Source: Vulcanimicrobiota bacterium
GTDB lineage: Bacteria; Vulcanimicrobiota; Vulcanimicrobiia; Vulcanimicrobiales; Vulcanimicrobiaceae
Direction: 5' to 3'
DNA length: 64,000 nucleotides
NCBI GenBank assembly: GCA_027452165.1
Contig: DAIDGX010000024.1
Location: 62,001-126,000 of the forward strand
In this document: piece by piece, positions 49,714-64,000 of the stretch
Layout of the letters: each line of letters begins with the position of its first letter
Numbering within the stretch: the first letter of the stretch is position 1
Notes under the pieces: model-generated
Seen by the model: the letters and a program-made list of their open reading frames with translations, nothing else
The model's database searches: none
Told to the model about the DNA's origin: nothing
Made by a program: the position numbers and the translations under genes

Positions 49714-50852
49714 TCTCGCGCGCGCACTTTCTGTATGCAGGCCTCGCGACGGGAATCGCGCCGGCCTTTCCACAAGCCGGCGTGTTGCAGCAATCGTCGA
49801 TCGGTGTAAACGTACCCTTGACGGGTCAATACGCCCCGTACGGAGCGCAGATCGTGGCAGGCGTGCAGGCCGCCGTCAATGAGACCAATCGCTACAATTC
49901 GACGCTAACGCGCGCGTGGGGCGTGCGCACGTTCGACGACCGCAACTCCGGCACCGTCGCAAGCTCGAACGTGTTCGTCGCCGCCTCGGACCCGAGCGTG
50001 GTCGGCATGGTAGGCGATCTTACCGCCGATGTGACGCTTGCGGCGCTCCCGCAATACGCCAACGCAAATTTTGCGATCGTGGTCCCGAGCGTCACGGCCG
50101 ACGTCATCACCGCGCGCGGTTACCGCAACGTGTTCCGCCTTCCGACGAGCGACACGAACGAAGGCATTCTCCTTGCGCGCGCGCTGCTCGATAAGCACAA
50201 CGGCACGAACGTCGTCGTGCTCGTGGTCGGCAGCGATTACGGTGCCGACGTGGCGAACGCGTTCATCGCCCAAGCCAAGGCACAACACCATACGGCCTCG
50301 CTCGTCACACTCGATGCGAACGAAGACCCGAAGAACTCGGCTGCGGTCGCGGTCGAACGTCATCCCTCGTTTGTTTTCCTGGCGGGCAAGCCCGAGGCGC
50401 TCGGCCCCGTCGCGACGACGATGCGCACGATGGGTTACACCGGTCCGTTTGCGGCGAGCGATGCGTTTTACACGGATCAAACCACGACGGCGTACGGGAA
50501 GGCGCTCGACGGAATGCTGGTTGCGTCGTCGCTCGCGCCGCTCGATCGTGTGCCGTCGGTCGCAGCGTATCTGCGCGACTTCGAGAACGACGTGGGCACC
50601 GTTAGCGCGTTCTCTGCCTATGGCTATGCCGCCGCGCAACTGATCATGCAGGCATCTGGCCGCATCAACGCCACGACCCGATTCCAAGTCCTCACCGAGC
50701 TCCAGCAGGGAGGCTCGTACAATCTGCTCGTCGGCCAGTACACCTTCAACTTCGCCGGAGACGCGACCGTACCGAACGTCTATCTCTTCCGCGTCACTTC
50801 CGGCGGCTTCGTTTACGACCGCCCGGCAATCGTTTCGGGATTCGTCGTGTGA
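49710..50852 (+). CDS. LivK-like ABC substrate-binding protein
   Basis: 380 residues. Short N-terminal hydrophobic segment that may be a signal peptide or anchor (the usual lipobox is absent). The periplasmic-binding fold of branched-chain amino-acid receptors is clear: IGVNVPLTGQYAPYGAQIVAGVQ, then VVPSVTADVITARG and SAFSAYGYAAAQLI. Ligand unknown. It overlaps ubiA by four bases (ATGA). No permease or ATPase genes are adjacent, so it may have another role such as a sensor or enzyme cofactor carrier. Confidence 0.8.
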   Translation: MISRAHFLYAGLATGIAPAFPQAGVLQQSSIGVNVPLTGQYAPYGAQIVAGVQAAVNETNRYNSTLTRAWGVRTFDDRNSGTVASSNVFVAASDPSVVGMVGDLTADVTLAALPQYANANFAIVVPSVTADVITARGYRNVFRLPTSDTNEGILLARALLDKHNGTNVVVLVVGSDYGADVANAFIAQAKAQHHTASLVTLDANEDPKNSAAVAVERHPSFVFLAGKPEALGPVATTMRTMGYTGPFAASDAFYTDQTTTAYGKALDGMLVASSLAPLDRVPSVAAYLRDFENDVGTVSAFSAYGYAAAQLIMQASGRINATTRFQVLTELQQGGSYNLLVGQYTFNFAGDATVPNVYLFRVTSGGFVYDRPAIVSGFVV

Positions 50853-50862
50853 GCGTGCGGTG

Positions 50863-51027
50863 CTACGCGCCGCGCCGCGAAAGCTCGTCTTCGGGCACGA
50901 TGCGTACGCGATGTGGTACCGGCGCTTTTGTCAGCGGCGCCGCATCGGTATCTTCGAGCGCAACGCAAAACCGCAGACGCCATGAGCCGAGCGTGATCGC
51001 GAAATTGGTTCCGAAAATCTCCATCAT
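50863..51027 (-). CDS. Small protein at the end of the GntR-ABC operon
   Basis: 54 residues. Tandem ATG codons, GGAGG about 8 nt upstream within the last codons of the permease, stop TAG at 50863. The protein reads MMEIFGTNFAITLGSW, then a middle rich in acidic and Pro residues, and PHRVRIVPEDELSRRGA at the end. No family known. It is directly downstream of the permease (3-nt gap), so it belongs to the operon started by the 36-residue peptide gene. Confidence 0.6.
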   Translation of the reverse strand: MMEIFGTNFAITLGSWRLRFCVALEDTDAAPLTKAPVPHRVRIVPEDELSRRGA

Positions 51028-51030
51028 TGT

Positions 51031-52053
51031 TTAGGCCTCCACGCGCCGCCACTGCCACACGGCGAGCGCTCCGTAGATTGCGAGAAGTGCGCACACCGCC
51101 GCGAAGCGTGGTGCGAAGGATGGGTCTGCGACCGAGAGGCTTCCGGTCGTCACCACGGTGTCCGCTGGACCGAAGCTTGCGTAGGTAAGCGGAATCGCGC
51201 GCATGATCGTCCATGCGATATCATGCACCGCGTTACCGACGATCGAACCCCCAAGGGAACTCGATCCGAGGCTCATGATCACAAGCAGGACCGGCCACGA
51301 AAGCCCGAGCACGGCCCCGTAGTTGCGGCGCATCGATGCCGTCGCTGCAGCCAGGAGCGCGTACCACGCGAGCGGCAAGCCCACGCTCATCATCAGCGCG
51401 TAGAACGAAAGCCCATCAAACTCGTAGTGCGGTAGTTGAAAGAGGGCCTGCACCGCGATTGCGGCCACGATGGCCATCCCGCCGGAGGCGAGGACGCCGA
51501 CCGCGTCCGCGCCCATCGTCTGTATTGCCATAGCGACGCGTCCGATGGGTTTGGTGAGCGAGATCTCCAGGTGCCCGGCATTCTCGCGAGCGAACGGGGC
51601 ACCGAGGATCGTCGCAACGATCAGGGCCACGAGCTCGGCGAATCCGATCAAGAAGAAGAACGGCGTCGGCGCGTTCGTGTACACGGTTGTCGTCGTAAAC
51701 TTCCCGTCGGTCGATTTTTGCACGCTCAGGCTGCCGAAGAGCACGCTGCTCACGTGCTCGTGAGGACCGGCAGGTTGGGTGACGACAATTTTTTCGCCTT
51801 CATAGCCGTGATTGTCGATGACGACACGCTCGCCTCGTGGTGAGATCAAGGTGGTGCGCACCGTTCCGTCGGGAAGCGTGCTCACGGTTTTTTTCGTACC
51901 CGCCTGCGTCTTGACGTCATTGATGATGGTATCCACCGTCGTTAGGTGAGCGACGCTTAGCCGTACGATGGCGGCGAGGAAAAACATGACCGCAAGCGCG
52001 ATTGCGATACCGCGCAGCGCATTTCGCACGCGCAGCCATTCAACGTAATTCAT
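51031..52053 (-). CDS. ABC-2-type permease of the GntR-ABC operon
   Basis: 340 residues. A short N-terminal helix, then an extracytoplasmic domain about 40-150, then six or so helices (FFLIGFAELVALIVATILG, and on to the C-terminus). The layout is that of ABC-2/YtrC-like permeases. It overlaps its ATPase by four bases. Probably exports a toxic compound or cell-wall antibiotic, as related GntR-regulated systems do, but the substrate is unknown. Confidence 0.75.
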   Translation of the reverse strand: MNYVEWLRVRNALRGIAIALAVMFFLAAIVRLSVAHLTTVDTIINDVKTQAGTKKTVSTLPDGTVRTTLISPRGERVVIDNHGYEGEKIVVTQPAGPHEHVSSVLFGSLSVQKSTDGKFTTTTVYTNAPTPFFFLIGFAELVALIVATILGAPFARENAGHLEISLTKPIGRVAMAIQTMGADAVGVLASGGMAIVAAIAVQALFQLPHYEFDGLSFYALMMSVGLPLAWYALLAAATASMRRNYGAVLGLSWPVLLVIMSLGSSSLGGSIVGNAVHDIAWTIMRAIPLTYASFGPADTVVTTGSLSVADPSFAPRFAAVCALLAIYGALAVWQWRRVEA

Positions 52054-52961
52054 TTGATAGCTCCCTCGACGACGTCGGCCGTCGTTTCTTGCGGCGCAAC
52101 CGCGTACAAGAAGATGTCTTCGAGATTGAGATCGACGATGCGCACACCGGTCCCGCCGAGCGCTTCAAGCTTTGCAACGAACTCGGCAGAATCGTTCGAG
52201 ACGAGCAGGCGTACGATGCGTCCGCTGCGATCGACACGCAAGATGCGCCCGTCCCGGGATATCCCGTTGAGCGAAAGAGCTTCCGACGGGAAGATCGCCT
52301 CAACGATCTTGCGGCCGGCCTTGAGGTCGTCCACCGCACCCTCGAGCGCCAGATTACCGCGATCGATCACGGCGATTCGCTCCGCGGCGCGTTCGACTTG
52401 ACCGATTTGATGCGAGGAAAAGATCACCGTAGCTCCGCGTGCCGACTCGTTGATGATCAAGTTCAGCACGTGGCGTTGGTTGATCGGATCGAGCCCGCTC
52501 GTCGGTTCGTCGAGAATCAACAGGTCCGCTTTGCGCGCGATCGCAAGCGCGACCATCGTCGCCGTGCGCATGCCTTTCGAGAGCGCGCGCGTCTTCTTGC
52601 GCGGATCGATGTTGAATTGTGCAAGCAACTCGTGCGCGTGCTTCACCTCGAACGACGCATAGGCACGGCGCTGCATCTCGACGTGCTCGGCAACCGTCAT
52701 CCAGTCGTAGAGCACGCTGCGCTCGGGCACGTAGGCAATCGTATCGAACTTTGCCGGCGTGAGCGGCTGGCCGTCGTACGCGATGCTGCCCGATGTCGGC
52801 CGCGCGAGGCCGAGCATGCATTTGAAGGTCGTGGTCTTACCCGCGCCATTTGGGCCGAGCAGGCCGAAGACGCAGCCTTCGGGCACGTCGATCGACAGGT
52901 CGTTGACCGCGGTGTACGGTCCGTACGTTTTGCGAAGATGGGAAATCGTGACGATGCTCAT
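52050..52961 (-). CDS. ABC transporter ATPase of the GntR-ABC operon
   Basis: 303 residues. Complete motifs: Walker A GPNGAGKTTT, signature ALSKGMRTA (LSGGQ variant), Walker B LLILDEPTSGLDP, His-switch SSHQIG. The C-terminal region after about 220 is an accessory domain of unclear role. It belongs to the drug/lantibiotic-export type of ABC ATPase rather than an importer. Four-base overlaps link it to the GntR gene and to the permease. Confidence 0.92.
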   Translation of the reverse strand: MSIVTISHLRKTYGPYTAVNDLSIDVPEGCVFGLLGPNGAGKTTTFKCMLGLARPTSGSIAYDGQPLTPAKFDTIAYVPERSVLYDWMTVAEHVEMQRRAYASFEVKHAHELLAQFNIDPRKKTRALSKGMRTATMVALAIARKADLLILDEPTSGLDPINQRHVLNLIINESARGATVIFSSHQIGQVERAAERIAVIDRGNLALEGAVDDLKAGRKIVEAIFPSEALSLNGISRDGRILRVDRSGRIVRLLVSNDSAEFVAKLEALGGTGVRIVDLNLEDIFLYAVAPQETTADVVEGAIK

Positions 52962-53356
52962 GGTTGCTCCGTAAACCAGCGATCGATCGATTCGGTGACG
53001 AGCGCTTGCACGTCGTCGGCCTTCAGGCCGATGGATTTTGCTTCGCGCACCGCGGCGTCAACGACGTCGCGAGCCACGTCGCGGGCGGCCGCTTTGGTCG
53101 AATCGGCGGCGCCGTTACTTTTGACGAAGGAGCCGCGTCCGGGCGCGGTGTCGATCACACCGTCACGCTCGAGTTCGCGATACGCCTTCGCGACGGTGTT
53201 CGGGTTGATTGTCAGGTCGAGCGCGAGCTGCTTGACCGTCGGAAGCTGCTCGCCGGTCCCCAGAATACCCAAGGCTACCGAGCGCTTGATCTGCTCGATC
53301 ACCTGCAGGTAGATGGGCACCCCGCTACGCGGGTCAACCGTGAGTACCACCGGCAT
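52958..53356 (-). CDS. GntR-family regulator, YtrA type
   Basis: 132 residues, an N-terminal winged helix (about 10-75, with IPLYLQVIEQIKR and LTINPNTVAKAYRELERDG) and a short C-terminal part of about 50 residues. That size and lack of an effector domain define the YtrA subfamily, whose members usually repress an adjacent ABC transporter and respond to antibiotics or membrane stress. It follows a 36-residue peptide gene by 5 nt and precedes the ATPase by overlap. Confidence 0.9.
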   Translation of the reverse strand: MPVVLTVDPRSGVPIYLQVIEQIKRSVALGILGTGEQLPTVKQLALDLTINPNTVAKAYRELERDGVIDTAPGRGSFVKSNGAADSTKAAARDVARDVVDAAVREAKSIGLKADDVQALVTESIDRWFTEQP

Positions 53357-53361
53357 GGCGG

Positions 53362-53472
53362 CTAGAACTTCGGGCCCCAGCCTTGAAACAGCGGCGCTGC
53401 GGCCTGCTGCGGAATACGCACGCGCGATTCCCGGGTGGCTTCGTCGCCAGGACGGCTGATGAAACGGGTCAT
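53362..53472 (-). CDS. 36-residue GWGPK peptide, first gene of the GntR-ABC operon
   Basis: Encodes MTRFISRPGD, a charged middle (EATRESRVRIP), and a C-terminus PLFQGWGPKF. CGGAAGGA ends about 10 nt before the ATG. The final GWGPK motif is shared with the 52-residue protein at 59602-59760, in both cases after an Ala/Ser/Phe-rich stretch and an R-V-x-I segment. It has no signal peptide or membrane segment. It could be a secreted signal, a substrate of the ABC exporter, a leader peptide or a peptide modulating the regulator. I know no matching family. Confidence 0.6.
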   Translation of the reverse strand: MTRFISRPGDEATRESRVRIPQQAAAPLFQGWGPKF

Positions 53473-53512
53473 GGTTGTGTTGTCCTTCCGTACTTCATAC
53501 CAATACGCTGTC

Positions 53513-53557
53513 GTACTAGTACACTAGTACAATAGAGCTTTCTGCATGCTCCGTCAA
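53513..53557 (-). promoter_or_regulatory. Promoter and operator of the GntR-ABC operon
   Basis: On the minus strand: TTGACG (53557-53552), a 17-nt spacer, TATTGT (53534-53529), a near-ideal sigma70 pair. The -10 box and start site overlap an 18-bp palindromic stretch at 53513-53530 (GTACTAGTAC and ACTAGTAC). YtrA-type regulators bind such sites, so this is the likely operator of the GntR gene in the same operon. Confidence 0.75.
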
Positions 53558-53639
53558 GAGGGCCCGTCGGGACCTGAGAAATGCGCACGGACCGCAGCAG
53601 TTGTCCCGCCATCATCATCGTCCGAAAAGCGACCCACGG

Positions 53640-54074
53640 TCATTGCAAGGGCCGTGCATTTTCGGACCGATCAACGCGCTCCTCAATAGCATTGCGCACG
53701 TCCGTTTTCACGAAATCATCGCCCTTAAACAGCAACGGTGCATCTTGCGCGATCGCGGTAACGTAGCTACAGCAATCACCGAGGTTTAGACCGGCTTCGT
53801 GATAGCCCTTACCGTAAAACGTGTACGCTTCGCCGGCCCGCTGCGCTTCGTCTTCGCCAAATGCGAATACGCGTACATCGAACTCACGTAGAAAAAGCTC
53901 GAGATCTAAGATGCCTTGAGGCCCCGCTTTCGCTCGCATGACGACGGCACACTCAAACGCGGTAAAGGCACTCACCCCAAGGGTCTGCGCGCTTCGCAGC
54001 GCGTGATAATAATCAGCGGCATCGTCCTCATCCATGAGCATCGCGACGATCGCCGACGTATCCAGAATAATCAC
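53640..54074 (-). CDS. vapC: PIN-domain ribonuclease toxin (VapC)
   Basis: 144 residues. Metal-binding acidic residues are visible as D5 in LDTSAIVAML, E41, D100 in NLGDCCSYV, and D119/D120 in FKGDDFVKTD. VapC toxins cut tRNA or rRNA. It overlaps its antitoxin by four bases. The adjacent 167-nt gap on the left carries the start of the GntR operon; nothing else is evident there. Confidence 0.9.
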   Translation of the reverse strand: MIILDTSAIVAMLMDEDDAADYYHALRSAQTLGVSAFTAFECAVVMRAKAGPQGILDLELFLREFDVRVFAFGEDEAQRAGEAYTFYGKGYHEAGLNLGDCCSYVTAIAQDAPLLFKGDDFVKTDVRNAIEERVDRSENARPLQ

Positions 54075-54328
54075 GCGTCGAACGTACCGCGCTCGCCGTA
54101 CCCAAGAATGTCGTCGACGGGGCGTGGGTCACGATCGTGGCCGCGGCGAGCGCGCACGCGGGCTTGGATTCGGGCAATCGCAGCCTGACGCGGATCCGAT
54201 AGCGCCTTGAGACGGGCGGCACGTTCACGCAAGGCGGCGGTGACGGCGGCGGTAATGGACTCGCCGGTGCGCGCTGAAATCTCGCGCGCGAGCGCCTCGG
54301 CTTCGTCATTCTTGATGTTGAGGGCCAT
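54071..54328 (-). CDS. vapB: VapB antitoxin, Rv0623-like
   Basis: 85 residues. Starts with MALNIKNDEAEALAREIS, the usual opening of this antitoxin family, followed by a ribbon-helix-helix-like helical region and an Arg-rich stretch. The ATG at 54328 was chosen for AGGA at suitable distance; an ATG two codons upstream is the alternative. Partner of VapC. Confidence 0.85.
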   Translation of the reverse strand: MALNIKNDEAEALAREISARTGESITAAVTAALRERAARLKALSDPRQAAIARIQARVRARRGHDRDPRPVDDILGYGERGTFDA

Positions 54329-54529
54329 GACCATATCCTACCCGAAAAGCATCAATTCAACAATGCCACACAATATTTATTCCATTCCACCATGATTCCG
54401 TGATGGCGTTCTTCGCGATTCGGCGGGTCGGCACGTACCAAAGACCAGGGGTTTTCCCGGATGGCCGGGGGCATGGGCCTTAGGTACCATGAGGCACACC
54501 AGAGATTCGCTCACGGAAAGGTCATCGCG
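54329..54529. other. Upstream region of vapB and the diguanylate cyclase gene
   Basis: About 200 nt without a gene. AT-rich around 54350-54400, consistent with promoters in both directions, including a TTGAAT-like element on the minus strand. I saw no operator of the size found at hipB and no clear riboswitch. Confidence 0.4.
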
Positions 54530-55813
54530 ATGCTCGACCAGGCTCTCGTCTGGAACACCGACATCAATCTGCAGGTCACGTCGCTTACGGCTCGGCTGCG
54601 CGACTTTGCGGGCATCGGCGACCGCGCGGCGACCCTACACGTGAGCGATCTCTGGGGAAGCTCCGATCCGGCCGACGTGATCCTCGCCGCGCACCAGTGG
54701 GTGCTCGATGGCGAGCACATGAGCTACGAGGCCGCGGTCCGCTCGACGCGCTTACGCTTCGAACTCGCTCCGCTGGTCGATGCGCTCGGCACGGTGGTGG
54801 GCGTGTGCGGCCGCGCCGTGGAGTTGCAGGCCGCCTCGATCGATCCGCGCGCCATGAACGCCGCCGAGCGCACGATCGGCATGGGGACCTGGTACGAGGA
54901 TCTTCGCACGGGGATCGTGACGATCTCCGAGGGCCTCGCCGGTATGCTCGGGACGCCGCGACACACGATGCACCTCGATATCCGGGCCTACGACCATCCA
55001 GAAGATCACGCTCGGGTCCTACGCACGCTCGCGGACTACGACGGCGAGGATGGCTACGCGTCCGATCACCGCATCCTCTGCGCCGACGGCCGCGTGCGTG
55101 CCGTGCGCGAACGCGTGCGTACGGTCTACGACGACCGGGGCGTTGCGATCGCCCGCGTCGGCACATTACTCGACATCAGCGATCTCAAGGAACGCGAAGC
55201 GCATCTCTCGGAACTCGCGCTTTGCGACGCGCTCACGCGACTGCCCAACCGTACCGCATTCGAGGAACGGCTCGAGTCCGCGATCGCGCGCTGTTCGCGC
55301 AACGAGCGGCGCTGTGGCGTGCTCTTCATCGACCTCGACGGTTTCAAGATGCAGAACGACCGGCACGGCCACGCGTTCGGCGATCGCATCCTGATCGGCG
55401 TCGCCGATCGCCTCTCACGCCACGTGCGCGCCTCGGACACGGTCGCACGCTTCGGCGGCGACGAGTTCGTGGTGCTGATCGACGACCTCTATACCGACGA
55501 CGCTGCCGTCGATGCGGCACGCAAAATTCTGCGAAGCCTCGACGACCCGTTCAGCGTCGATGGAACGACGGTGAGCATCCGCGCGAGCATCGGCGTTGCC
55601 ACGTACCCCGGCAGCGGGGCCACCGCGCGTGACGTAATGGAACGCGCCGATCACGAGATGTACGTGGTCAAGCGCAACGGCGGCTGCGGGGTCAAACTCG
55701 CGGCACAGAAGGAAACTGCACGCGAGGCCACTGAGAAGCGATTGTGCCAAACCCCCTCTTCGACGGAGCCGCATCGCTTCGTCACCCTCGAGAGCGTCTT
55801 GCGTTCGTCCTAA
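54530..55813 (+). CDS. Diguanylate cyclase with PAS region
   Basis: 427 residues. An N-terminal sensory region (two PAS-like halves, about 1-105 and 110-220) is followed by a GGDEF domain: GGDEF at 309-313, and an RxxD inhibitory site (R300ASD303) 5 residues before it, so the product c-di-GMP can feed back. No EAL or HD-GYP. Soluble. ATG at 54530 was chosen (GGAAAGG upstream); the frame is open for 23 further codons upstream. Its end overlaps the next gene by 70 nt. Confidence 0.88.
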   Translation: MLDQALVWNTDINLQVTSLTARLRDFAGIGDRAATLHVSDLWGSSDPADVILAAHQWVLDGEHMSYEAAVRSTRLRFELAPLVDALGTVVGVCGRAVELQAASIDPRAMNAAERTIGMGTWYEDLRTGIVTISEGLAGMLGTPRHTMHLDIRAYDHPEDHARVLRTLADYDGEDGYASDHRILCADGRVRAVRERVRTVYDDRGVAIARVGTLLDISDLKEREAHLSELALCDALTRLPNRTAFEERLESAIARCSRNERRCGVLFIDLDGFKMQNDRHGHAFGDRILIGVADRLSRHVRASDTVARFGGDEFVVLIDDLYTDDAAVDAARKILRSLDDPFSVDGTTVSIRASIGVATYPGSGATARDVMERADHEMYVVKRNGGCGVKLAAQKETAREATEKRLCQTPSSTEPHRFVTLESVLRSS

Positions 55814-57243
55814 CGCTCGTCTTTGCGCTCCCGATCGCGTATGCGATCGGGCGCGTGATCCACCAAGATATCGGGCCGCCCGAAGTGGCGCTCTTCATCG
55901 TGATCGCGATGCTCTATGTCACGCTCGCACGAGGGCGCCTGATCGGCTCGTCGGTGATGATTCACGAAGCGCAATACCCGCGCGTGTTCGCGATCGTCAA
56001 AAACGTGTGCTTGCGTCTCGAATTGCCGATGCCGCTCATCTTCGTGCGCGAGGACAATTTCGTGCCGGCGGTCGCCTTGGGTTTCGGGGAACCCTACGCG
56101 CTCGTGCTCTCGAGCCACTGGATCGAGACCTTCACCGACGACGAACTCGCGTTTTCGATCGGCCGCGAACTCGGGCACATCGCTGCGGGGCACACGCGCT
56201 ACCTCTCGCTTTTGAGCGTGAACGGCAACGAGAACGCGCTCGTTTCGATCGTCTTCGGTGGATGGTTGCGCACCTGCACCTACACTTGTGACCGCATCGG
56301 GCTGCTCGCATGCGGATCGCTCGACGCCGCGATTCGCTCGATCGCGATTGCGTCGTTTCACGAGTTCGGCCGGCACGTGAACACCGGACAGTTCATCGAA
56401 CAGGGCCGCGAGGTTGCAAGCGACAGCGTCTTGCGTTGGGGCGAGTGGCTTGGATCCGAACCGTACGCCACGCGGCGCATCGCCGCGATGGACGACTTCA
56501 TGCGCTCGCCGGCGTTCGCGCAGGCGTCCGCGTGGTATGCTCGCGAGGTCGTCGAAACGCCGGCTACCGCGACGGCCGGCAGCGGTGTGGTGACGCGCGC
56601 CGACTGTGCCGGGTGGTGGCGACGCGTATGGGCAGTAACGATCGACCTCGTCGTCGTCAGCACCCTTGTGCTTGCGTTCACCGCGCAGACGCATCAGCAA
56701 CTGCAACCCGTCACAACCACCGTCGTCTCGACCGACAAGAACGGCAAGACGACCAAGACGATGAAGACCGTCGAAGAGCCCGTCGTCACCCCTGGCATCG
56801 TTTCGACCGGCAGCGATGGCGTCGTGCGCTTCGGGATCGCGCGCATCGACAACGCCGGGCTCCATCTCGATCTCGCCGACACGCCACTGGGCCATTTCGT
56901 CGAACGCGTGACGAGTTTCGCGGGCAATTCAACCCTCTTTTACACCGCGGTCTATCTTTGGCTGCTCGTCGGTCTTGCCGGGCAGAGCTTCGGTATGATG
57001 ATCCTGGGCTTGCGCGTGGTAACGACCGACTATAAGACGCCGGGTCTTGGACGCGCGTTTGCGCGCTACGCGATCGGGCTCGTTCTGTGGTGGTTAATCC
57101 TCCCGCTGAGCCCATTCATGCGTCGCGTCATGCTGCACGATCGCATCTCGGGTACGCGTTTGATCCGCGCCGAACGCATCATGGCGCGCGCTGCGCGCGC
57201 GGTTACGCCCTCACCGGCTACGCCGGCGCCGATTGCGCGGTGA
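55744..57243 (+). CDS. M48-metallopeptidase-like/RDD fusion, zinc motif altered
   Basis: 499 residues. Two N-terminal helices, then an M48-like domain (about 70-250) with SIGRELGHIAAGH where the active-site HExxH is expected: the first His is R141, while E142 and H145 remain. An RDD membrane domain (about 290-470) follows, with helices and FGMMILGLRVV. I infer a membrane-anchored, probably non-proteolytic or differently metallated protein. GTG start inside the preceding gene (70-nt overlap, different frame). Confidence 0.65.
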   Translation: MPNPLFDGAASLRHPRERLAFVLTLVFALPIAYAIGRVIHQDIGPPEVALFIVIAMLYVTLARGRLIGSSVMIHEAQYPRVFAIVKNVCLRLELPMPLIFVREDNFVPAVALGFGEPYALVLSSHWIETFTDDELAFSIGRELGHIAAGHTRYLSLLSVNGNENALVSIVFGGWLRTCTYTCDRIGLLACGSLDAAIRSIAIASFHEFGRHVNTGQFIEQGREVASDSVLRWGEWLGSEPYATRRIAAMDDFMRSPAFAQASAWYAREVVETPATATAGSGVVTRADCAGWWRRVWAVTIDLVVVSTLVLAFTAQTHQQLQPVTTTVVSTDKNGKTTKTMKTVEEPVVTPGIVSTGSDGVVRFGIARIDNAGLHLDLADTPLGHFVERVTSFAGNSTLFYTAVYLWLLVGLAGQSFGMMILGLRVVTTDYKTPGLGRAFARYAIGLVLWWLILPLSPFMRRVMLHDRISGTRLIRAERIMARAARAVTPSPATPAPIAR

Positions 57244-57673
57244 GCCCGAGGGCGTTCGAGAGCCGGCTCAGGTAGTTGTTCAAGCCGATCGTCGCGAGGA
57301 TCTCCACGACCGCGCCCGGGGCGAAGTGCTCGTGCAACGCCATCGCGAGATTGGGCGGCAAAGCGCGCGGTTCGCGCGTAAGCGCAACGGTCGCAGCAAG
57401 CGCAGCGCGCTCCGCATCGCTAAAGAGCGGGCTTCGCGCGTAGTCGCCAAGCGATGCAAGCGTCGCGGTGTCGATGCCCAGATGCTGCGCGATCTCTTCG
57501 TGCACGCAGGTGCAGTAGTCGCAGGCATTTAGCCAGCCGACCATAAGCGCGATCAGTTCCTTGACGCGCCGTTCCACGCTATCGCTCTCGTTGAGCGCGC
57601 GTACGTGCGCGGCGAGCGTGCGCGAGAGTTCGGGCTGCGCTGCGAGCGCCTCGAACAACGAACCGTATGCCAT
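57218..57673 (-). CDS. AhpD-like / carboxymuconolactone decarboxylase family protein
   Basis: 151 residues. CDYCTCVHEE holds the conserved CxxC of AhpD-type peroxidases, and NLAMALHEHFAPGAVVEI matches the second part of the fold. Members couple reduction of AhpC or act as decarboxylases. Convergent with the M48-like gene (26-base overlap). It ends just before the CadC-like regulator stop. Confidence 0.8.
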   Translation of the reverse strand: MAYGSLFEALAAQPELSRTLAAHVRALNESDSVERRVKELIALMVGWLNACDYCTCVHEEIAQHLGIDTATLASLGDYARSPLFSDAERAALAATVALTREPRALPPNLAMALHEHFAPGAVVEILATIGLNNYLSRLSNALGLTAQSAPA

Positions 57674-57676
57674 CGC

Positions 57677-59083
57677 TTAGGCGGGTTGCTGCGGCGAACT
57701 GAAGTGGCTAAACGCTGCATCCGCACGCAGTGCCGCGAAACGCGGGTCGTTCTCGATCGCAAGCCACGCAAGATGTCCCTTCAGCCCGCGAAGCAGTTGC
57801 AGTGCGATCGAGCGATCGCCCACGGCGGCGGCGGCAGCGGCGAGATCGGTCGGATCGACGCTCTTCTCGTGCGCACTTGCAAAGGCGAGTTGCGCGCGCG
57901 CGGCGCGCATATGGTGCTGCAGCGCGAAGACGTGCGCGAGAAGCGCCGCCGCTTCGGGGCGATTCCCCGCCTCGATTGTCCCGTAGCGTTTGAAGGCGTC
58001 GATCGCGCGAGCGTAGTTGCCTTCGGCTTCGTAGGCTTCGCCGATCGTCGTCAAAACATCGGTGCGATGCGGATCCAAATCGAGCGTTTGGCGCGAGTAG
58101 GCAATGGCCTCGTTGAAGCGATGGTCGAGATAGGCAGCCGACCCGAGCCAGTCGGTGGTTGAGACCGAGAGCGGGTCGAGATTCGCGGCGGTCTGCAGTT
58201 GGTGGAACGCCTCGTGCATGCGTCCACGGTACAACAGCGCGACGCCGTACCATTCGTGCGCCGGTCCGTACGACGGGTCGAGTTGAATCGAGCGCTCGAG
58301 TTCATCGATCGCGTCACCCTGACGATGCATGTCGAGCGCGATCAAACCAAGCGATGCATGCGCTTCAGCGCAGTTCGGATCGATCGCGAGGGCTTTCTCG
58401 GCGTAGCTACGCGCCCGCGCGAAATACACGGTCTGCGGCAGCGTGCCGTAACGATAGTCGCCCATAATCGCGTTGGCTTCCGAGAGCGCCGCGTAGCCGC
58501 GTGCGTCGCGCGGATCGGTGTCGATCACTTGCGCGAAATAGGCTAGGCTCTTCTCCACGCCGCTACGCGTGCGCAGATTCCAATAATAGCGGCCGATTTG
58601 GTAGAGGCGGGAGCCGTTGGCCGACAGGTGCGGTACGCTCGTACGATGAGCGGCCGCCGCCGTGAGCGCTAGGCCAAGCACGACGAGCGCAAGGCTCGCC
58701 GCCACCGCAAGCACGCGCAGTCCGTAACGCGCCGGCTTGCGTATCACGCGCGGTTGCGCAAGCGGAACGTCTTCGAGCTTGCGTACCTCTTCGACGAAAC
58801 GGTACCCGCGACGCGGCACCGTCTCGATCGCGTCGCGCCCCCACGTTGCACGCAGCATCTTGCGCAGCACGTAGATGTTCTGCGCGAGATTTGCTTCTTC
58901 GACGAAGCCCTCGGGCCAGATGCGATCGAGCAGCGCGCCTTTGGCGAGCACGTCGCCCGGATGCTCCACAAGCGCGAGCAACGTCTCCACGACCTTCGGA
59001 CCGAGCGCGACGGGCGCGCCTTCGTGAAGGAGTAAGAGACGCTCGACGTCGAGCTGGAACGGGCCGAACTCGTAAACGCTCAT
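57677..59083 (-). CDS. CadC-like transmembrane winged-helix regulator with TPR
   Basis: 468 residues. DNA-binding wHTH about 1-100 (GPFQLDVERLLLL, NIYVLRKMLRATWG and the terminal IETVPRRGYRFVEEV, a Trans_reg_C hallmark). A single transmembrane segment at about 121-145, then four or five TPR repeats (for example AHEWYGVALLYRGRMHEAF and ALAIDPNCAEAHASLG) outside or at the membrane. It senses a protein or peptide and activates a promoter directly, like CadC/ToxR. The target is not known; the gap before the GWGPK gene at 59602 is the closest divergent gap. Confidence 0.85.
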   Translation of the reverse strand: MSVYEFGPFQLDVERLLLLHEGAPVALGPKVVETLLALVEHPGDVLAKGALLDRIWPEGFVEEANLAQNIYVLRKMLRATWGRDAIETVPRRGYRFVEEVRKLEDVPLAQPRVIRKPARYGLRVLAVAASLALVVLGLALTAAAAHRTSVPHLSANGSRLYQIGRYYWNLRTRSGVEKSLAYFAQVIDTDPRDARGYAALSEANAIMGDYRYGTLPQTVYFARARSYAEKALAIDPNCAEAHASLGLIALDMHRQGDAIDELERSIQLDPSYGPAHEWYGVALLYRGRMHEAFHQLQTAANLDPLSVSTTDWLGSAAYLDHRFNEAIAYSRQTLDLDPHRTDVLTTIGEAYEAEGNYARAIDAFKRYGTIEAGNRPEAAALLAHVFALQHHMRAARAQLAFASAHEKSVDPTDLAAAAAAVGDRSIALQLLRGLKGHLAWLAIENDPRFAALRADAAFSHFSSPQQPA

Positions 59084-59601
59084 GGTGATCTACCGGACCT
59101 CTCCCGAGTAACGTTAGCCTATGTACGCTGACCGTGCTCGCCGGTTTCGGCCGGGTGGCGGGCAGCTCTACCCGATACCTGTTCGTTCACGGCGGCCAAG
59201 GCTCCCCATCCCCGGCGCCTCGATCCGCGGCTGGACGGTCCGGCCAGGAGGGCCGCCCCTATCGCAAGCGAGGGACCCTGGGCGAACGTGACCACCCGGA
59301 GCCCTAGGCCGGATTCGCCGCCGGCGGGCTGCGACGCTTGTCGCTCGATTTCGAAAGCGGACGCAAAGCAACCGGATTTGCAACTGAATCGCTTCATCGT
59401 TATGTACGTGCTGCGCACGGCTACGACACGTAAACGCGCTTATCGCGCGTAGTACGAATGGCCCATCGCATGACGTTTTTTTACGCATTCGTGTCACAAA
59501 ACGTGTGAAACAAAACGCATAGATACACCGTAATGCAGAGTGTACAGTGACTTACGGATCGAGCAATGTTGCAGCGCGATTCGCTACGGAAGGAAAAGAT
59601 T
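59084..59601. other. 518-nt gap between the CadC-like regulator and the GWGPK peptide gene
   Basis: No convincing gene on either strand. About 59119-59418 carries an open frame on the minus strand (99 codons), but it has no ribosome-binding site and is read only because this part is GC-rich; I do not call it. About 59130-59340 is strongly self-complementary. About 59460-59560 is AT-rich, with TCACA, AAACG, TGTGA as an inverted repeat and an ACGCAT repeated twice; this is the likely promoter region of the peptide gene. Confidence 0.45.
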
Positions 59602-59760
59602 TTGAATACGCCCTCGCAGTCGAAAGCCGTCGAAGAGCCAGAACGCGAGCCCGTCGTTTCGTTCACGCGCGTGATCGAAATTGCACCGAGCAGCTCGTCG
59701 TTCGGCGGCTGGGGACCGAAGGTCGTCGGTCTCACGAGCACCCTCGTTCGTTGGAATTAA
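59602..59760 (+). CDS. 52-residue GWGPK peptide
   Basis: TTG start with CGGAAGGA about 7 nt upstream, the same segment as at the 36-residue gene; an ATG 12 codons earlier has no such site. The protein starts MNTPSQSKAVEEP, continues acidic and then FTRVIEIAPSSSSFGG, and holds GWGPK with a 12-residue tail ending LVRWN. No signal peptide, no hydrophobic helix. Shares the R-V...GWGPK arrangement with the gene at 53362-53472. A GCAA-capped terminator follows 108 nt on. No family known. Confidence 0.6.
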   Translation: MNTPSQSKAVEEPEREPVVSFTRVIEIAPSSSSFGGWGPKVVGLTSTLVRWN

Positions 59761-59867
59761 TCCAAAACTAAGGTTTCATCCACACCATATGGTGTGAGAT
59801 GGAAATGGGCCGGCGTTGACCCTCCACCAACGCAGACCCAAATGGACTCCAACTCGTAGAGTGCAGC

Positions 59868-59908
59868 AAACAAGCAGGGTCGGCAGCAATGCCGGCCCTA
59901 CTTGTTTT
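59868..59908 (+). terminator. Terminator of the GWGPK peptide transcript
   Basis: A stem of about 17 bp with one mismatch and one T.G wobble, loop GCAA (59886-59889), then TTTT at 59905-59908. The apical TCGGCA-GCAA-TGCCGG design is that of the rpsO and pnp terminators. It overlaps the 3' end of the convergent lipid-kinase gene. Confidence 0.8.
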
Positions 59909-60746
59909 CCTTAAGCGGTACGTACACGCGCAACGCCTTCGGCACCAGGTCAAATCGCGCCGGCGTGGTTCCGGCAGGTTCGCCGTCGGCACTGATGCGA
60001 TGCGGGTGCCGCGTGCGCAGCGTGAATCCGCGAGCCCGGATAGCACGCAAGCCGTCGGCGCGCGTGCGTCCGCCTGCAAGGATCGCGCATAGCACGCCGA
60101 TCGCTTGCCGGAAGGACCGGACGTCAATGCTATAGAGATCGAGCCAGCCGTCGTCGATCGCAGCATCGGCCACGTTCACGAGCCCGCCGAAACGATGGCT
60201 GTTCGCAACCGTCAGTTGCACCGTGCGCAGGCGCTCGCAGCCGCCCTCGTGCTCGATCTCGACCGTGATGGGGCGCGCGTGACGGAAGGCCTGCAACGTG
60301 GTACCGAGCACGCCGAGGGCGCCGAAACGCCGCTTGAGGTCGGGGGTTTGCAGGCGCGTGAGCCGGCTCGAGATGCCGATGCTCGCCTCGTTCACGAAGT
60401 AGGTGCCGTTCACGCGCGCGACGTCGATCGCGCGCTCGTGCGCCGCCGCGATCGTGCGCACCGCCCCATCGAGCTCGAGCGGGATTCCAAGGGTGCGGGC
60501 GAGCTCGTTAAAGGTGCCGAGCGGCACGATGCCAAGCGGCAGCCCGCGCGCGAGCGCCATCTCGATGATCCCGAGCAGCGTGCCGTCGCCGCCCGCCGCG
60601 ATGATGCAGTCGGCCTCCGGGGCGACGTCGGCCGGCCAGCCGTCCTCCACCACCTGCACGCCCGCCCGGTGGAGCGCGTCGCGCAGCGGAACGGCCGCCT
60701 CTCGGCCCCGCCGCGACCGGGGGTTCACGACCAGCTGCGCGAGCAT
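59898..60746 (-). CDS. Diacylglycerol/lipid kinase, YegS-BmrU family
   Basis: 282 residues. Contains the catalytic IIAAGGDGTLL motif near residue 50-60, GIVPLGTFNELAR, and a C-terminal region (ITVEIEHEGGCERLRTVQLTVAN) with the second lobe. Phosphorylates diacylglycerol or related lipids. Only some members have a known lipid substrate. Ends in the terminator of the convergent peptide gene. Confidence 0.88.
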   Translation of the reverse strand: MLAQLVVNPRSRRGREAAVPLRDALHRAGVQVVEDGWPADVAPEADCIIAAGGDGTLLGIIEMALARGLPLGIVPLGTFNELARTLGIPLELDGAVRTIAAAHERAIDVARVNGTYFVNEASIGISSRLTRLQTPDLKRRFGALGVLGTTLQAFRHARPITVEIEHEGGCERLRTVQLTVANSHRFGGLVNVADAAIDDGWLDLYSIDVRSFRQAIGVLCAILAGGRTRADGLRAIRARGFTLRTRHPHRISADGEPAGTTPARFDLVPKALRVYVPLKENK

Positions 60747-60890
60747 GACCGCCTGGTTTCGCTAGGTACCCCGGGGGGACCACTTGGGTCTATCGGCCCC
60801 GATAGACAGGTGGAACCCCCGATGTTTGCTCGGGCATGCACCACGTACGATAGCACCATCGAATCGCTTGTCGCCCAAGGAGAGCCGCCA

Positions 60891-61211
60891 ATGACCGCAA
60901 CGATCGACACCACCGTCAACTTCGATACCACGCAACCCCGCTGCTACGTCCTCGACGAAACGCATCGCGTGATCATGATCTGCACGCCCTCTCCGGGCAA
61001 TCCGCTTAATGCCCGCTTCACGCCCGAAGAGCACCTGGAGCTGCCGAGCCTGCTGAGTAAGGCCGTGCGCGCCCTAGAGGACGCCTGCGAGAAGCGCTCG
61101 GAGCGCACGATGAGCGCCGAGATCGGCAACCTGCACCTGCGGGTGAATCTGCTCCATGGCGCATGGGGCCAGCACACGGCCCTGATCGTCGAACCGCGCC
61201 TCGGCGGCTAA
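60891..61211 (+). CDS. Conserved-looking hypothetical protein
   Basis: 106 residues. AAGGAG seven bases before ATG at 60891 decides the start; an open frame continues upstream to ATG 60822. The middle reads PRCYVLDETHRVIMICTPSP, with later RFTPEEHLELPSLLSKAV, and GAWGQHTALIVEPRLGG ends it. It looks like a compact alpha/beta protein, perhaps PAS- or GAF-like, but I recognise no family. Its stop overlaps the convergent GNAT gene by four bases. Confidence 0.5.
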   Translation: MTATIDTTVNFDTTQPRCYVLDETHRVIMICTPSPGNPLNARFTPEEHLELPSLLSKAVRALEDACEKRSERTMSAEIGNLHLRVNLLHGAWGQHTALIVEPRLGG

Positions 61212-61678
61212 AGCTCGCCTTCGAGCGGCTTGCCATAATGAACGTGGCAGTCCGGCTCGTTCTGATAGGCGGGAATGCGGCGGTATCCGAGCGATTCGTA
61301 GAGCGCGATCGCCGCACGCATCGACGGTTTGGTATCCAGGATCACACGCGCCGCTCCGGCGCGACGCGCATGCGCTTCGGCGGCCTCCATCAAGCGCACG
61401 GCAAGCCCCTGACGCCGCCCCGCGGGACGCACGTAGAGACGCTTGATCTCGAACGCGCCGGACAGCTCCTCGTAGGGATGTACGGCGACACATCCCATGA
61501 CATCGGCACCGGCAACCCCGAGAAAAACAGCGGAGCGCGCATCTGCGAGGTGCCGCGCCACCTCGGCATCGACGTCATCGCGCATCACGGTGTCGCGAAT
61601 CGTCGTGAGATACTCGGCGATCACCGCCGCCGCGATCTCCGCATCGTCCGCACCGGCCCGCCGCACGTCGATCATCAT
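61208..61678 (-). CDS. GNAT-family N-acetyltransferase
   Basis: 156 residues. The acetyl-CoA signature is LYVRPAGRRQGLAVRLM, followed by the usual AARVILDTKPSMRAAIALYESLGYR. The start at tandem ATGs after the tRNA was chosen because the frame continues through the tRNA gene, which cannot be coding. Substrate unknown. Confidence 0.88.
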   Translation of the reverse strand: MMIDVRRAGADDAEIAAAVIAEYLTTIRDTVMRDDVDAEVARHLADARSAVFLGVAGADVMGCVAVHPYEELSGAFEIKRLYVRPAGRRQGLAVRLMEAAEAHARRAGAARVILDTKPSMRAAIALYESLGYRRIPAYQNEPDCHVHYGKPLEGEL

Positions 61679-61703
61679 ACCGTCAAAGCCCAGCCTCGGG
61701 TTT

Positions 61704-61790
61704 TGGTGCTCAGGAAGGGACTCGAACCCCCACGATGTTGCCACCACTGGTACCTGAAACCAGCGCGTCTACCAATTCCGCCACCTGAGC
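61704..61790 (-). tRNA. tRNA-Leu(CAG)
   Basis: 87 nt including encoded CCA. Acceptor stem GCTCAGG pairs with CCTGAGC; anticodon loop TTCAGGT gives anticodon CAG; the long variable arm (TGGTGGCAACATCG) is the class II type of leucine tRNAs; T loop GTTCGAG. It lies between the GNAT and the MFS gene, transcribed opposite to the latter. Confidence 0.97.
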
Positions 61791-61881
61791 GCGACTGACC
61801 CGGGTTCGCCCTGCGCGGCCCGCACCCTTCCGGGCGACGCAACCGGGCCCTCCGCGACCGGGTCTCGAAGGGCACGCTCCC

Positions 61882-63072
61882 GTGATTCGCAAGCTCTTGC
61901 CGATCCTCGGCATCACGTTTATCGACATCATCGGCTTCAGCATGCTGTTGCCGCTGCTCCCCTATTTCGTCACGCACTTCGGGGTGAGCGCGGAGGTCGT
62001 GGGCATTCTGATGGCCACCTTCTCCCTCTGCCAGCTGATCTCGGGGCCGCTGTGGGGCAACGCGTCCGATCGGATCGGACGCAAGAAGGTGCTCGTGATC
62101 AGCCAGATCGGCGCGACGATCGGATGGGCGATGCTGGCCTTCGCGCACACGATCCAGTGGGTCTTCATCGCGCGCATCGTCGAGGGCATCTCGGGCGGCA
62201 ACATCGGCATCACGCAGGCGTACGTCGCCGACGTCGTGGAGCCGAAAGACCGGGCGCGCGCGTTCGGATTCATTGGCGCCACCTTCGCCGCAGGCATGGT
62301 CTTCGGGCCGGCGGGCGGCGGGCTGCTCTTCGCCAGGTATGGTTTCGCTGCGCCGTTTCTCGTGGCATCGGGACTGCAATTGCTCACGTTGATCCTCACG
62401 CTCGTGCTGCTGCCCGAATCACGCGCGAAGCCGGCTGATGGCGAGGCCAAGGTGGGCCTACGTGAGATGGCAACCACGTTCACGAACGCGCGCTTCTCGC
62501 CGCTACTCGCACAGAAATTCGCGCTCTCGCTCGCGCTTTACGCGTGGTACTCGGTGATCGCGCTCTACCTGGCGGGTCAATTGAACTTCGGCGTGGTGCA
62601 GACCACGCAGTACTTCTCGGGCTTTGCGCTCGTGAACGTGGCGATTAACGGCATCGGCGTCGGTAAAGCGTCGAAAAAACTCGGCGACCGGGTCATGTCG
62701 CTGCTCGGTCTCGCACTCCTTGCGATCGCGTTTGCGTTTACGCCGTTCGTGCATACGGCGCTCACCGTCGCGGTGGTGATGGTGCTCTTCGCGCTCGGCG
62801 GCGCGTTCGCGCAAAACGGTATCACCGCGATGATCTCGAACGCGGCGACCGATCGCGAACAGGGCACGGTCCTGGGGGTCAGTTCGTCGCTCGACTCGCT
62901 CTCGGGCATCATCGCGCCCCCGATCTCGACAGGGGTGCTCTCGCGATACGGATCCCCGTTTGCGGGGCTTCCCTCGCTCGTCATGTCAGCCGCCGGCCTC
63001 GCTCTCGGCATTCGCAACGCACTCACCCCGAGCGCTCTGAAGACTGAAACCAACCCCGCCGCCTCAAAGTAA
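61882..63072 (+). CDS. MFS drug/efflux transporter, TetA/DHA1-like
   Basis: 396 residues with twelve helices. The DHA1 family antiporter signature between helices 2 and 3 is LWGNASDRIGRKKVL, and helix 5 has the GPAGGGLL motif (antiporter motif C) typical of drug exporters. Helix 4 region reads VEGISGGNIGITQAYVAD. The GTG start follows the tRNA gap. Probably exports a hydrophobic compound by proton exchange. Confidence 0.85.
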   Translation: MIRKLLPILGITFIDIIGFSMLLPLLPYFVTHFGVSAEVVGILMATFSLCQLISGPLWGNASDRIGRKKVLVISQIGATIGWAMLAFAHTIQWVFIARIVEGISGGNIGITQAYVADVVEPKDRARAFGFIGATFAAGMVFGPAGGGLLFARYGFAAPFLVASGLQLLTLILTLVLLPESRAKPADGEAKVGLREMATTFTNARFSPLLAQKFALSLALYAWYSVIALYLAGQLNFGVVQTTQYFSGFALVNVAINGIGVGKASKKLGDRVMSLLGLALLAIAFAFTPFVHTALTVAVVMVLFALGGAFAQNGITAMISNAATDREQGTVLGVSSSLDSLSGIIAPPISTGVLSRYGSPFAGLPSLVMSAAGLALGIRNALTPSALKTETNPAASK

Positions 63073-63117
63073 AGCTCGTAGTCCGGACAGAACGTCGTCG
63101 CCTCGGAGGATGAGCGC

Positions 63118-63882
63118 ATGAAGACTAAGATTACCGGAACCACGCTCCCCGTGCTCGAGATCGGGCTCGAACCCGGTGATAAGATCGTCGCCGAACCCGG
63201 CGAGTTCTCGTGGATGACCTCGAACGTGCAGTTGAACACCACCGCGATGACTGCGGGTGCGAAGGGACTCTTCGGCGTGATCACGCGCGCGATGTCGGGC
63301 GGCGGAATTTTTATGACGGAGTATACGTCGAACGGCACCGGCTTGATCGCATTCGCCGCCAAAGTCCCGGGGCAAATCGTCCAGGTCGATGTGACGCCGG
63401 GCAAAGAGTACATGATCCATCGCCACGGATTTTTGTGCGCAACGGACGGCGTGCAACTGCAGATGGGCTTCCAGCGCTCGCTCGGTGCGGGCATCTTCGG
63501 CGGCGACGGCTTCATGTTGCAACGGCTGGGCGGCTCGTGCAGCGCATGGGTCGAACTCGGCGGCGAGATCGTCACCTACGATCTGCAACCCGGCGAGACG
63601 ATTCAGGTGCATCCCGGTCACATCGGGATGTTCGAGGCGACCGTCAACTTCGACATCACCTTCATGAAAGGGATGATGAACGCCATCTTCGGCGGTGACG
63701 GGCTCTTCATCGCGCGCTTGACCGGTCCCGGAAAGGTATGGCTGCAAACGCTTACCATGCCGAATCTCGCGGGCGCGCTCGCGCCGTATCTCGGCGGCGG
63801 GCAGATGCAGCAGACCGCGCAGGCGGGCGTTGCCGGCGGCATCGCGGGCGCCGTGCTGCGCGATATGTTCGGCGGCAGATAG
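63118..63882 (+). CDS. AIM24/TIGR00266 family protein
   Basis: 254 residues, mostly beta. GEFSWMTSNVQLNTTAM, KGLFGVITRAMSGGGIFMTEY and the repeated CSAWVELGGEIVTYDL segment define the AIM24 fold (two related halves). A Gly/Ala-rich C-terminus follows. Family members are linked to mitochondrial biogenesis in eukaryotes; the bacterial role is unknown. 45 nt after the MFS gene, so perhaps co-transcribed. Confidence 0.85.
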   Translation: MKTKITGTTLPVLEIGLEPGDKIVAEPGEFSWMTSNVQLNTTAMTAGAKGLFGVITRAMSGGGIFMTEYTSNGTGLIAFAAKVPGQIVQVDVTPGKEYMIHRHGFLCATDGVQLQMGFQRSLGAGIFGGDGFMLQRLGGSCSAWVELGGEIVTYDLQPGETIQVHPGHIGMFEATVNFDITFMKGMMNAIFGGDGLFIARLTGPGKVWLQTLTMPNLAGALAPYLGGGQMQQTAQAGVAGGIAGAVLRDMFGGR

Positions 63883-63894
63883 CGTACGGGCGCG

Positions 63895-64000
63895 TTACGC
63901 CGCGGATTTTTTGCGCCGCGTCGTCGCGCTCTTCTTCTCGGACTTCTCTTGAGAAGCGGTGCGCCCGTTCGCGGCGCGCCGCTTCTTGCTCTCTTCGAGC
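63895..64000 (-). CDS. C-terminal end of a Lys/Arg-rich protein, 5' part outside
   Basis: Only the last 34 codons and the TAA are inside. The sequence is basic and low in hydrophobics (LEESKKRRAANGRTASQEK then KSEKKSATTRRKKSAA). This is the kind of tail found on DNA-binding or RNA-binding proteins such as Ku or histone-like proteins. I cannot name the protein. Confidence 0.45.
   Translation of the reverse strand, partial: LEESKKRRAANGRTASQEKSEKKSATTRRKKSAA

Follow-up and report, generated by a model that had tools for sequence, protein, structure and literature searches.

An undescribed small-protein family with a shared C-terminal motif, encoded in several types of regulated operons of Eremiobacteria

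In this study, a previously undescribed family of small proteins (34-55 residues) was identified in soil bacteria of the class Eremiobacteria. The family is confined to Candidatus Eremiobacterota and comprises 131 distinct loci (identical sequences merged). The host of the window belongs to this phylum too, as the closest relatives of its GntR regulator carry that label. Its members carry a common signature, F-x-G-W-G-[PV]-[KR]-phi (where phi is a hydrophobic residue), at the extreme C terminus; in eight known members, including the one encoded at positions 59602-59760 of the window, approximately 12 extra residues follow the motif. The window is the whole stretch of DNA that was analysed (64,000 nucleotides). 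It contains two members, which are listed here together with their ribosome-binding sites:

53362-53472, minus strand: type-A small protein, 36 aa, MTRFISRPGDEATRESRVRIPQQAAAPLFQGWGPKF, C-terminal LFQGWGPKF, first gene of a GntR/ABC operon (basis: about 60 orthologous leaders ahead of this GntR gene in relatives, Shine-Dalgarno and selection tests)
53483-53490, minus strand: Shine-Dalgarno sequence CGGAAGGA of the type-A gene (basis: sequence and Shine-Dalgarno enrichment)
59587-59594, plus strand: Shine-Dalgarno sequence CGGAAGGA of the type-B gene (basis: sequence)
59602-59760, plus strand: type-B small protein, 52 aa, TTG start, LNTPSQSKAVEEPEREPVVSFTRVIEIAPSSSSFGGWGPKVVGLTSTLVRWN, with SFGGWGPK followed by the tail VVGLTSTLVRWN (basis: orthologues and selection)

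A sequence-only reading of this DNA had proposed that the two ORFs represent a peptide family with a common core motif. The ORFs do exist as described (coordinates, strands, ribosome-binding sites and neighbours were confirmed), and the family is real, with many members, purifying selection and conserved neighbours; the roles then suggested for it fare less well, as discussed below. The sequence CGGAAGGA, which that reading regarded as a shared mark, is indeed present upstream of both genes. As a family signature it was rejected, because it is an ordinary ribosome-binding site and the form of the Shine-Dalgarno sequence varies among members (AAAGGA, AGGAG etc. in others). The host genome (95% complete, 2.64 Mb) contains two matches of the strict GWGPK codon pattern GGNTGGGGNCCNAAR, both located in the window, and none of its reversed control; a profile search revealed a third family member (G000:C23:345588-345614, minus strand, MLTANKLDKTLPGARTTLGRPALADLRPTFDGWGPRL).

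When 98 relatives were searched with the strict pattern, matches were found in 56 genomes. The open frames at these matches (mixed with chance matches in other frames) include dozens of short ORFs ending in F-x-G-W-G-P-K-hydrophobic, directly followed by a stop codon. A looser, degenerate DNA pattern including the stop codon gave matches in 90 of 149 genomes of the phylum, compared with approximately 6 for the reversed pattern; the matches in relatives are far above the control. These matches are almost limited to two families (f1 and f3) of a single class and are at chance level in the other classes. Outgroup samples were near chance (Acidobacteriota, 7/149; Chloroflexota, 4/151), and most of the matches found there end in TGG, not in a stop codon. 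In a survey of the regions upstream of 80 GntR relatives, approximately 62 had a leader whose end consists of FxGWG plus P or V, mostly with K or R as the next residue.

The residues F, G, W and G of the signature are invariant by search design. The last residue was left free, and each of the 119 distinct type-A proteins has L, I, F, V or A there. The region upstream of the motif is looser, with R, P and hydrophobic residues, and the R-V-x-I likeness previously pointed out between the two window proteins is weak and covers only a portion of a looser R-x-P-[TV]-[VIL]...P region. Type-B orthologues found in seven other loci start with GTG, TTG or (L083) ATG, and the type-B tails (the window copy and seven relatives from the first survey) mostly end with WN. 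The earlier remark that no such family has been published is upheld: when 39 members were compared with Pfam and NCBIfam, no family was matched by more than one of them (best E 0.0096), and the string GWGPK occurs in no paper of the literature searched, the latter being a weak test, as a family could be described without this string. Neither a signal peptide nor a hydrophobic or transmembrane stretch is visible in the member sequences (read by eye), and AlphaFold gives an uninformative, disordered model for type A (pLDDT 65, pTM 0.13).

Sequence-based evidence strongly supports the view that both window ORFs are real genes and that the ORFs of the family are coding. A Shine-Dalgarno sequence at a proper distance precedes 93% of the members, compared with 19% of control short ORFs handled with the same start-choosing rule (85% and 9%, respectively, for a Shine-Dalgarno sequence with ATG). 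The dN/dS ratio for 30 disjoint pairs was 0.20 overall, 0.10 in the last nine codons and 0.22 in the rest, and in a second comparison (13 pairs) it was 0.15 in frame and >2 in both shifted frames; these ratios are somewhat lowered by the choice of pairs with a protein identity of at least 60% and by the residues that the motif search itself holds constant. Third codon positions vary within the motif, which indicates that selection acts on the protein.

In the commonest context (76 loci), the small protein is encoded by the first gene of a YtrA-like GntR/ABC operon. The operon lying behind the type-A gene, already recognized in the sequence-only reading, was confirmed:

53514-53529: putative GntR operator TACTAGTNNACTAGTA, 41 nt upstream of the type-A start
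52958-53356, minus strand: YtrA-like GntR regulator, 132 aa, starting 5 nt after the type-A stop (PF00392, E 2.6e-14)
52050-52961, minus strand: ABC transporter ATPase (PF00005, E 9.4e-28)
51031-52053, minus strand: ABC permease-like membrane protein, no Pfam match (cluster C0, 75 neighbouring proteins)

Typical features of the YtrA subfamily are present, i.e. a GntR helix-turn-helix with a short C-terminal region, ABC genes downstream and a palindromic putative operator upstream. The YtrA-subfamily regulons described in PMC4494728 likewise combine a GntR regulator with a reduced C-terminal domain, an ABC operon and a palindromic operator, and are autoregulated; unlike for the type-A operon, the accessible part of that paper describes no added small gene at the operon head. 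A TACTAGTNNACTAGTA-like site (with up to 3 mismatches) is located within 120 nt upstream in 76 of the 76 GntR-type loci. In the host genome TACTAGTNNACTAGTA is the only site found at up to 2 mismatches, and copies of the family outside GntR operons mostly lack this operator. Joint control of both window genes by the GntR operator was rejected, as the operator is unique in the genome. In many GntR-type leaders a conserved GGTAC element (53488-53530 in the window) is present approximately 12 nt from the main operator, and it is perhaps an extra half-site. Directly after the ABC permease (window positions 50863-51027, minus strand) lies the gene of another conserved small protein (54-58 aa, 'MEI.GTNF.ITLGSWRLRF..A.EDTD'), and proteins of this type occur in the GntR operons of approximately 16 relatives.

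Outside the GntR operons, the neighbours of the family copies are DUF4097/ECF-sigma, DUF5916/CadC-like, CGNR, PadR and SARP-like genes. The third copy of the host belongs to a context with a DUF4097/DUF6249 pair and an ECF sigma factor. A DUF5916 gene, beside a CadC-like/TPR regulator, precedes type B and a short-tailed relative, while in family f3 the context is a CGNR/ABATE regulator. Single cases lie next to regulators of the PadR, ECF, LuxR-like and SARP-like types, the last two names coming from a reading of the sequences rather than from a profile. Of the 131 loci, 103 have a regulator gene directly alongside and 12 more have one within two genes. These values are inflated, since GntR was the route by which many of the loci were found; among the 62 loci found through the motif alone, the GntR type accounts for 34 and the DUF5916/CadC type for 11. 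The surroundings of the type-B gene in the window are as follows:

57677-59083, minus strand: CadC-like regulator (Trans_reg_C and TPR), divergent from type B (PF00486, E 2.7e-14), a conserved neighbour (cluster C3)
59294-59448: site of the missing DUF5916 gene; relatives have an approximately 2-kb gene between the CadC-like gene and type B, and type B is kept here

The 518-nt gap between type B and the CadC-like/TPR gene, reported earlier, was confirmed. In a BLASTn comparison of this gap with two related loci (L053 and L054) the flanks align joined, with approximately 2 kb missing; the DUF5916 gene is thus missing in the window, and this explains the gap. A relict of this gene was rejected, as no clear remnant was present among the TBLASTN matches listed and the BLASTn alignment shows the flanks joined.

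The explanation that we favour, although we would give it somewhat less than an even chance, is that each operon type makes its own small, disordered protein and that all of these proteins share a C-terminal docking tag, which one trans-acting partner reads. The proteins, small, probably disordered and presumably cytoplasmic, would be encoded beside a local regulator (YtrA-like GntR, ECF sigma, CadC-like, CGNR/ABATE, PadR or SARP-like), which presumably switches on their expression. Each operon type has its own N-terminal and middle part, which would target the local system; the eight residues at the end (F-x-G-W-G-[PV]-[KR]-hydrophobic) are common to all and would most likely be the docking tag. 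A candidate reader of this tag is one conserved trans-acting partner, e.g. a protease or adaptor, a core regulator or a processing factor. The presence of one ending in unrelated operons argues for such a tag; the type-B proteins, with approximately 12 residues after the motif, argue against it, as a free C terminus would not always be needed.

The distribution of the family among genomes also bears on this proposal. The genera g9 (11 genomes) and g25 (10 genomes) gave zero motif matches, and in g9 the DUF4097 gene is kept without the tagged leader in 5 of 5 genomes tested. Seven further genomes, with a closely related GntR gene without a leader, contain no copy anywhere. Host operons that are kept while every copy is absent fit one shared trans-acting partner, but this clade-wide absence represents few independent evolutionary events and could reflect lineage history. 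An extended form of the proposal, which we consider rather unlikely, is that proteins of stress and transport operons across the class carry one tag recruiting or reporting to a single machine, and that lineages which lost the machine lost all of the tagged proteins.

One eight-residue ending ties together several unrelated regulated operons, in a family that is under purifying selection and has no curated profile. If one partner reads the tag, this would be a new way of linking separate stress or envelope operons in an almost uncultured phylum, and the clade-wide absence offers a direct route to the partner through phylogenetic profiling. The family and the tag shared across several operons are new, while the biochemical mechanism may prove to be of a known type.

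Among the alternatives, the best placed, in our judgement improbable, is a cis-acting leader ORF, in which ribosome pausing on FxGWGPK-phi at the stop codon, or termination-reinitiation, sets the expression of the next gene (GntR, DUF4097, PadR or ECF). The stop codon directly follows the conserved motif and, in the GntR loci, lies only 3-47 nt before GntR; an own Shine-Dalgarno sequence of GntR is present in just 30 of 76 detected starts, which fits translational coupling. However, the gene caller placed no gene on the same strand within 60 nt downstream of 34 of the 131 copies, among them the complete DUF5916/CadC-type set of 13; in type B the reading frame runs on for 12 codons beyond the motif, and purifying selection extends to the N-terminal part (dN/dS 0.22). 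Moreover, the GntR-type leaders show no conserved RNA fold (RNAalifold consensus of -2.1 kcal/mol and covariation of -0.06 for 20 leaders), and an RNA attenuator was rejected for this reason; an Rfam search of positions 50000-64000 gave no match except a tRNA. The bmrCD leader peptide of Bacillus subtilis (PMC4191407) is likewise encoded by a short translated ORF that precedes a regulated operon for an ABC transporter, and, in the part of that source available, it acts by ribosome-mediated transcription attenuation; in contrast, the family described here has no conserved RNA fold and approximately one quarter of its copies are without a downstream gene.

We regard as still less probable that the proteins are precursors of RiPP- or pheromone-like signal peptides, either secreted or modified, whose mature part would be the conserved C terminus around GWGPK. 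A short length, a conserved C terminus containing Trp and Lys, and an ABC transporter in the commonest operon would suit such precursors, but no hydrophobic or signal region is seen in the sequences, the radical-SAM signature CxxxCxxC occurs in 0 of 818 neighbouring proteins, and most of the non-GntR copies have no exporter alongside. The PqqD/RRE domain (PF05402) is absent from the family-positive genomes G000, G001 and G002 (own genus), G038 and G050, and SPASM (PF13186) from the family-positive genomes G036 and G038, which weakens the case for a RiPP of the RRE- or SPASM-dependent classes. As a general role, the modified or exporter-associated peptides suggested in the sequence-only reading are thus not supported.

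A dedicated small subunit or modulator of the adjoining ABC transporter, placed like YtrG of B. subtilis, is very unlikely. The gene order does correspond to ytrG-ytrA-ABC (a gene for a small protein of approximately 45 aa upstream of a YtrA-type GntR repressor and an ABC transporter, as for type A), and the small protein accompanies most of the GntR loci of the collection scan (approximately 62/80). On the other hand, the tag is also found in operons without any ABC transporter, and closely related GntR genes occur without the small protein. YtrG has been described as a small transmembrane protein (PMC12772383) and as a 45-residue peptide that is probably not part of the transporter (PMC8060467). 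This description, of a transmembrane protein of one operon, sets it apart from the proteins studied here, which are hydrophilic, carry the FxGWG[PV][KR]phi tag and occur in several unrelated operons.

A chance resemblance of two unrelated short frames, conceivable given the short motif and only two strict GWGPK copies in the genome, is refuted by the phylum-wide recurrence, the Shine-Dalgarno enrichment, the dN/dS and frame controls and the conserved neighbours, and its probability is next to nil.

In family f3, two tagged small proteins (L100 and L101) are encoded on either side of a metallophosphatase-like gene, beside a CGNR regulator. In the window, the GntR operon adjoins a PIN-domain/Rv0623-like gene pair (53640-54334, minus strand), a toxin-antitoxin module of the VapBC type.
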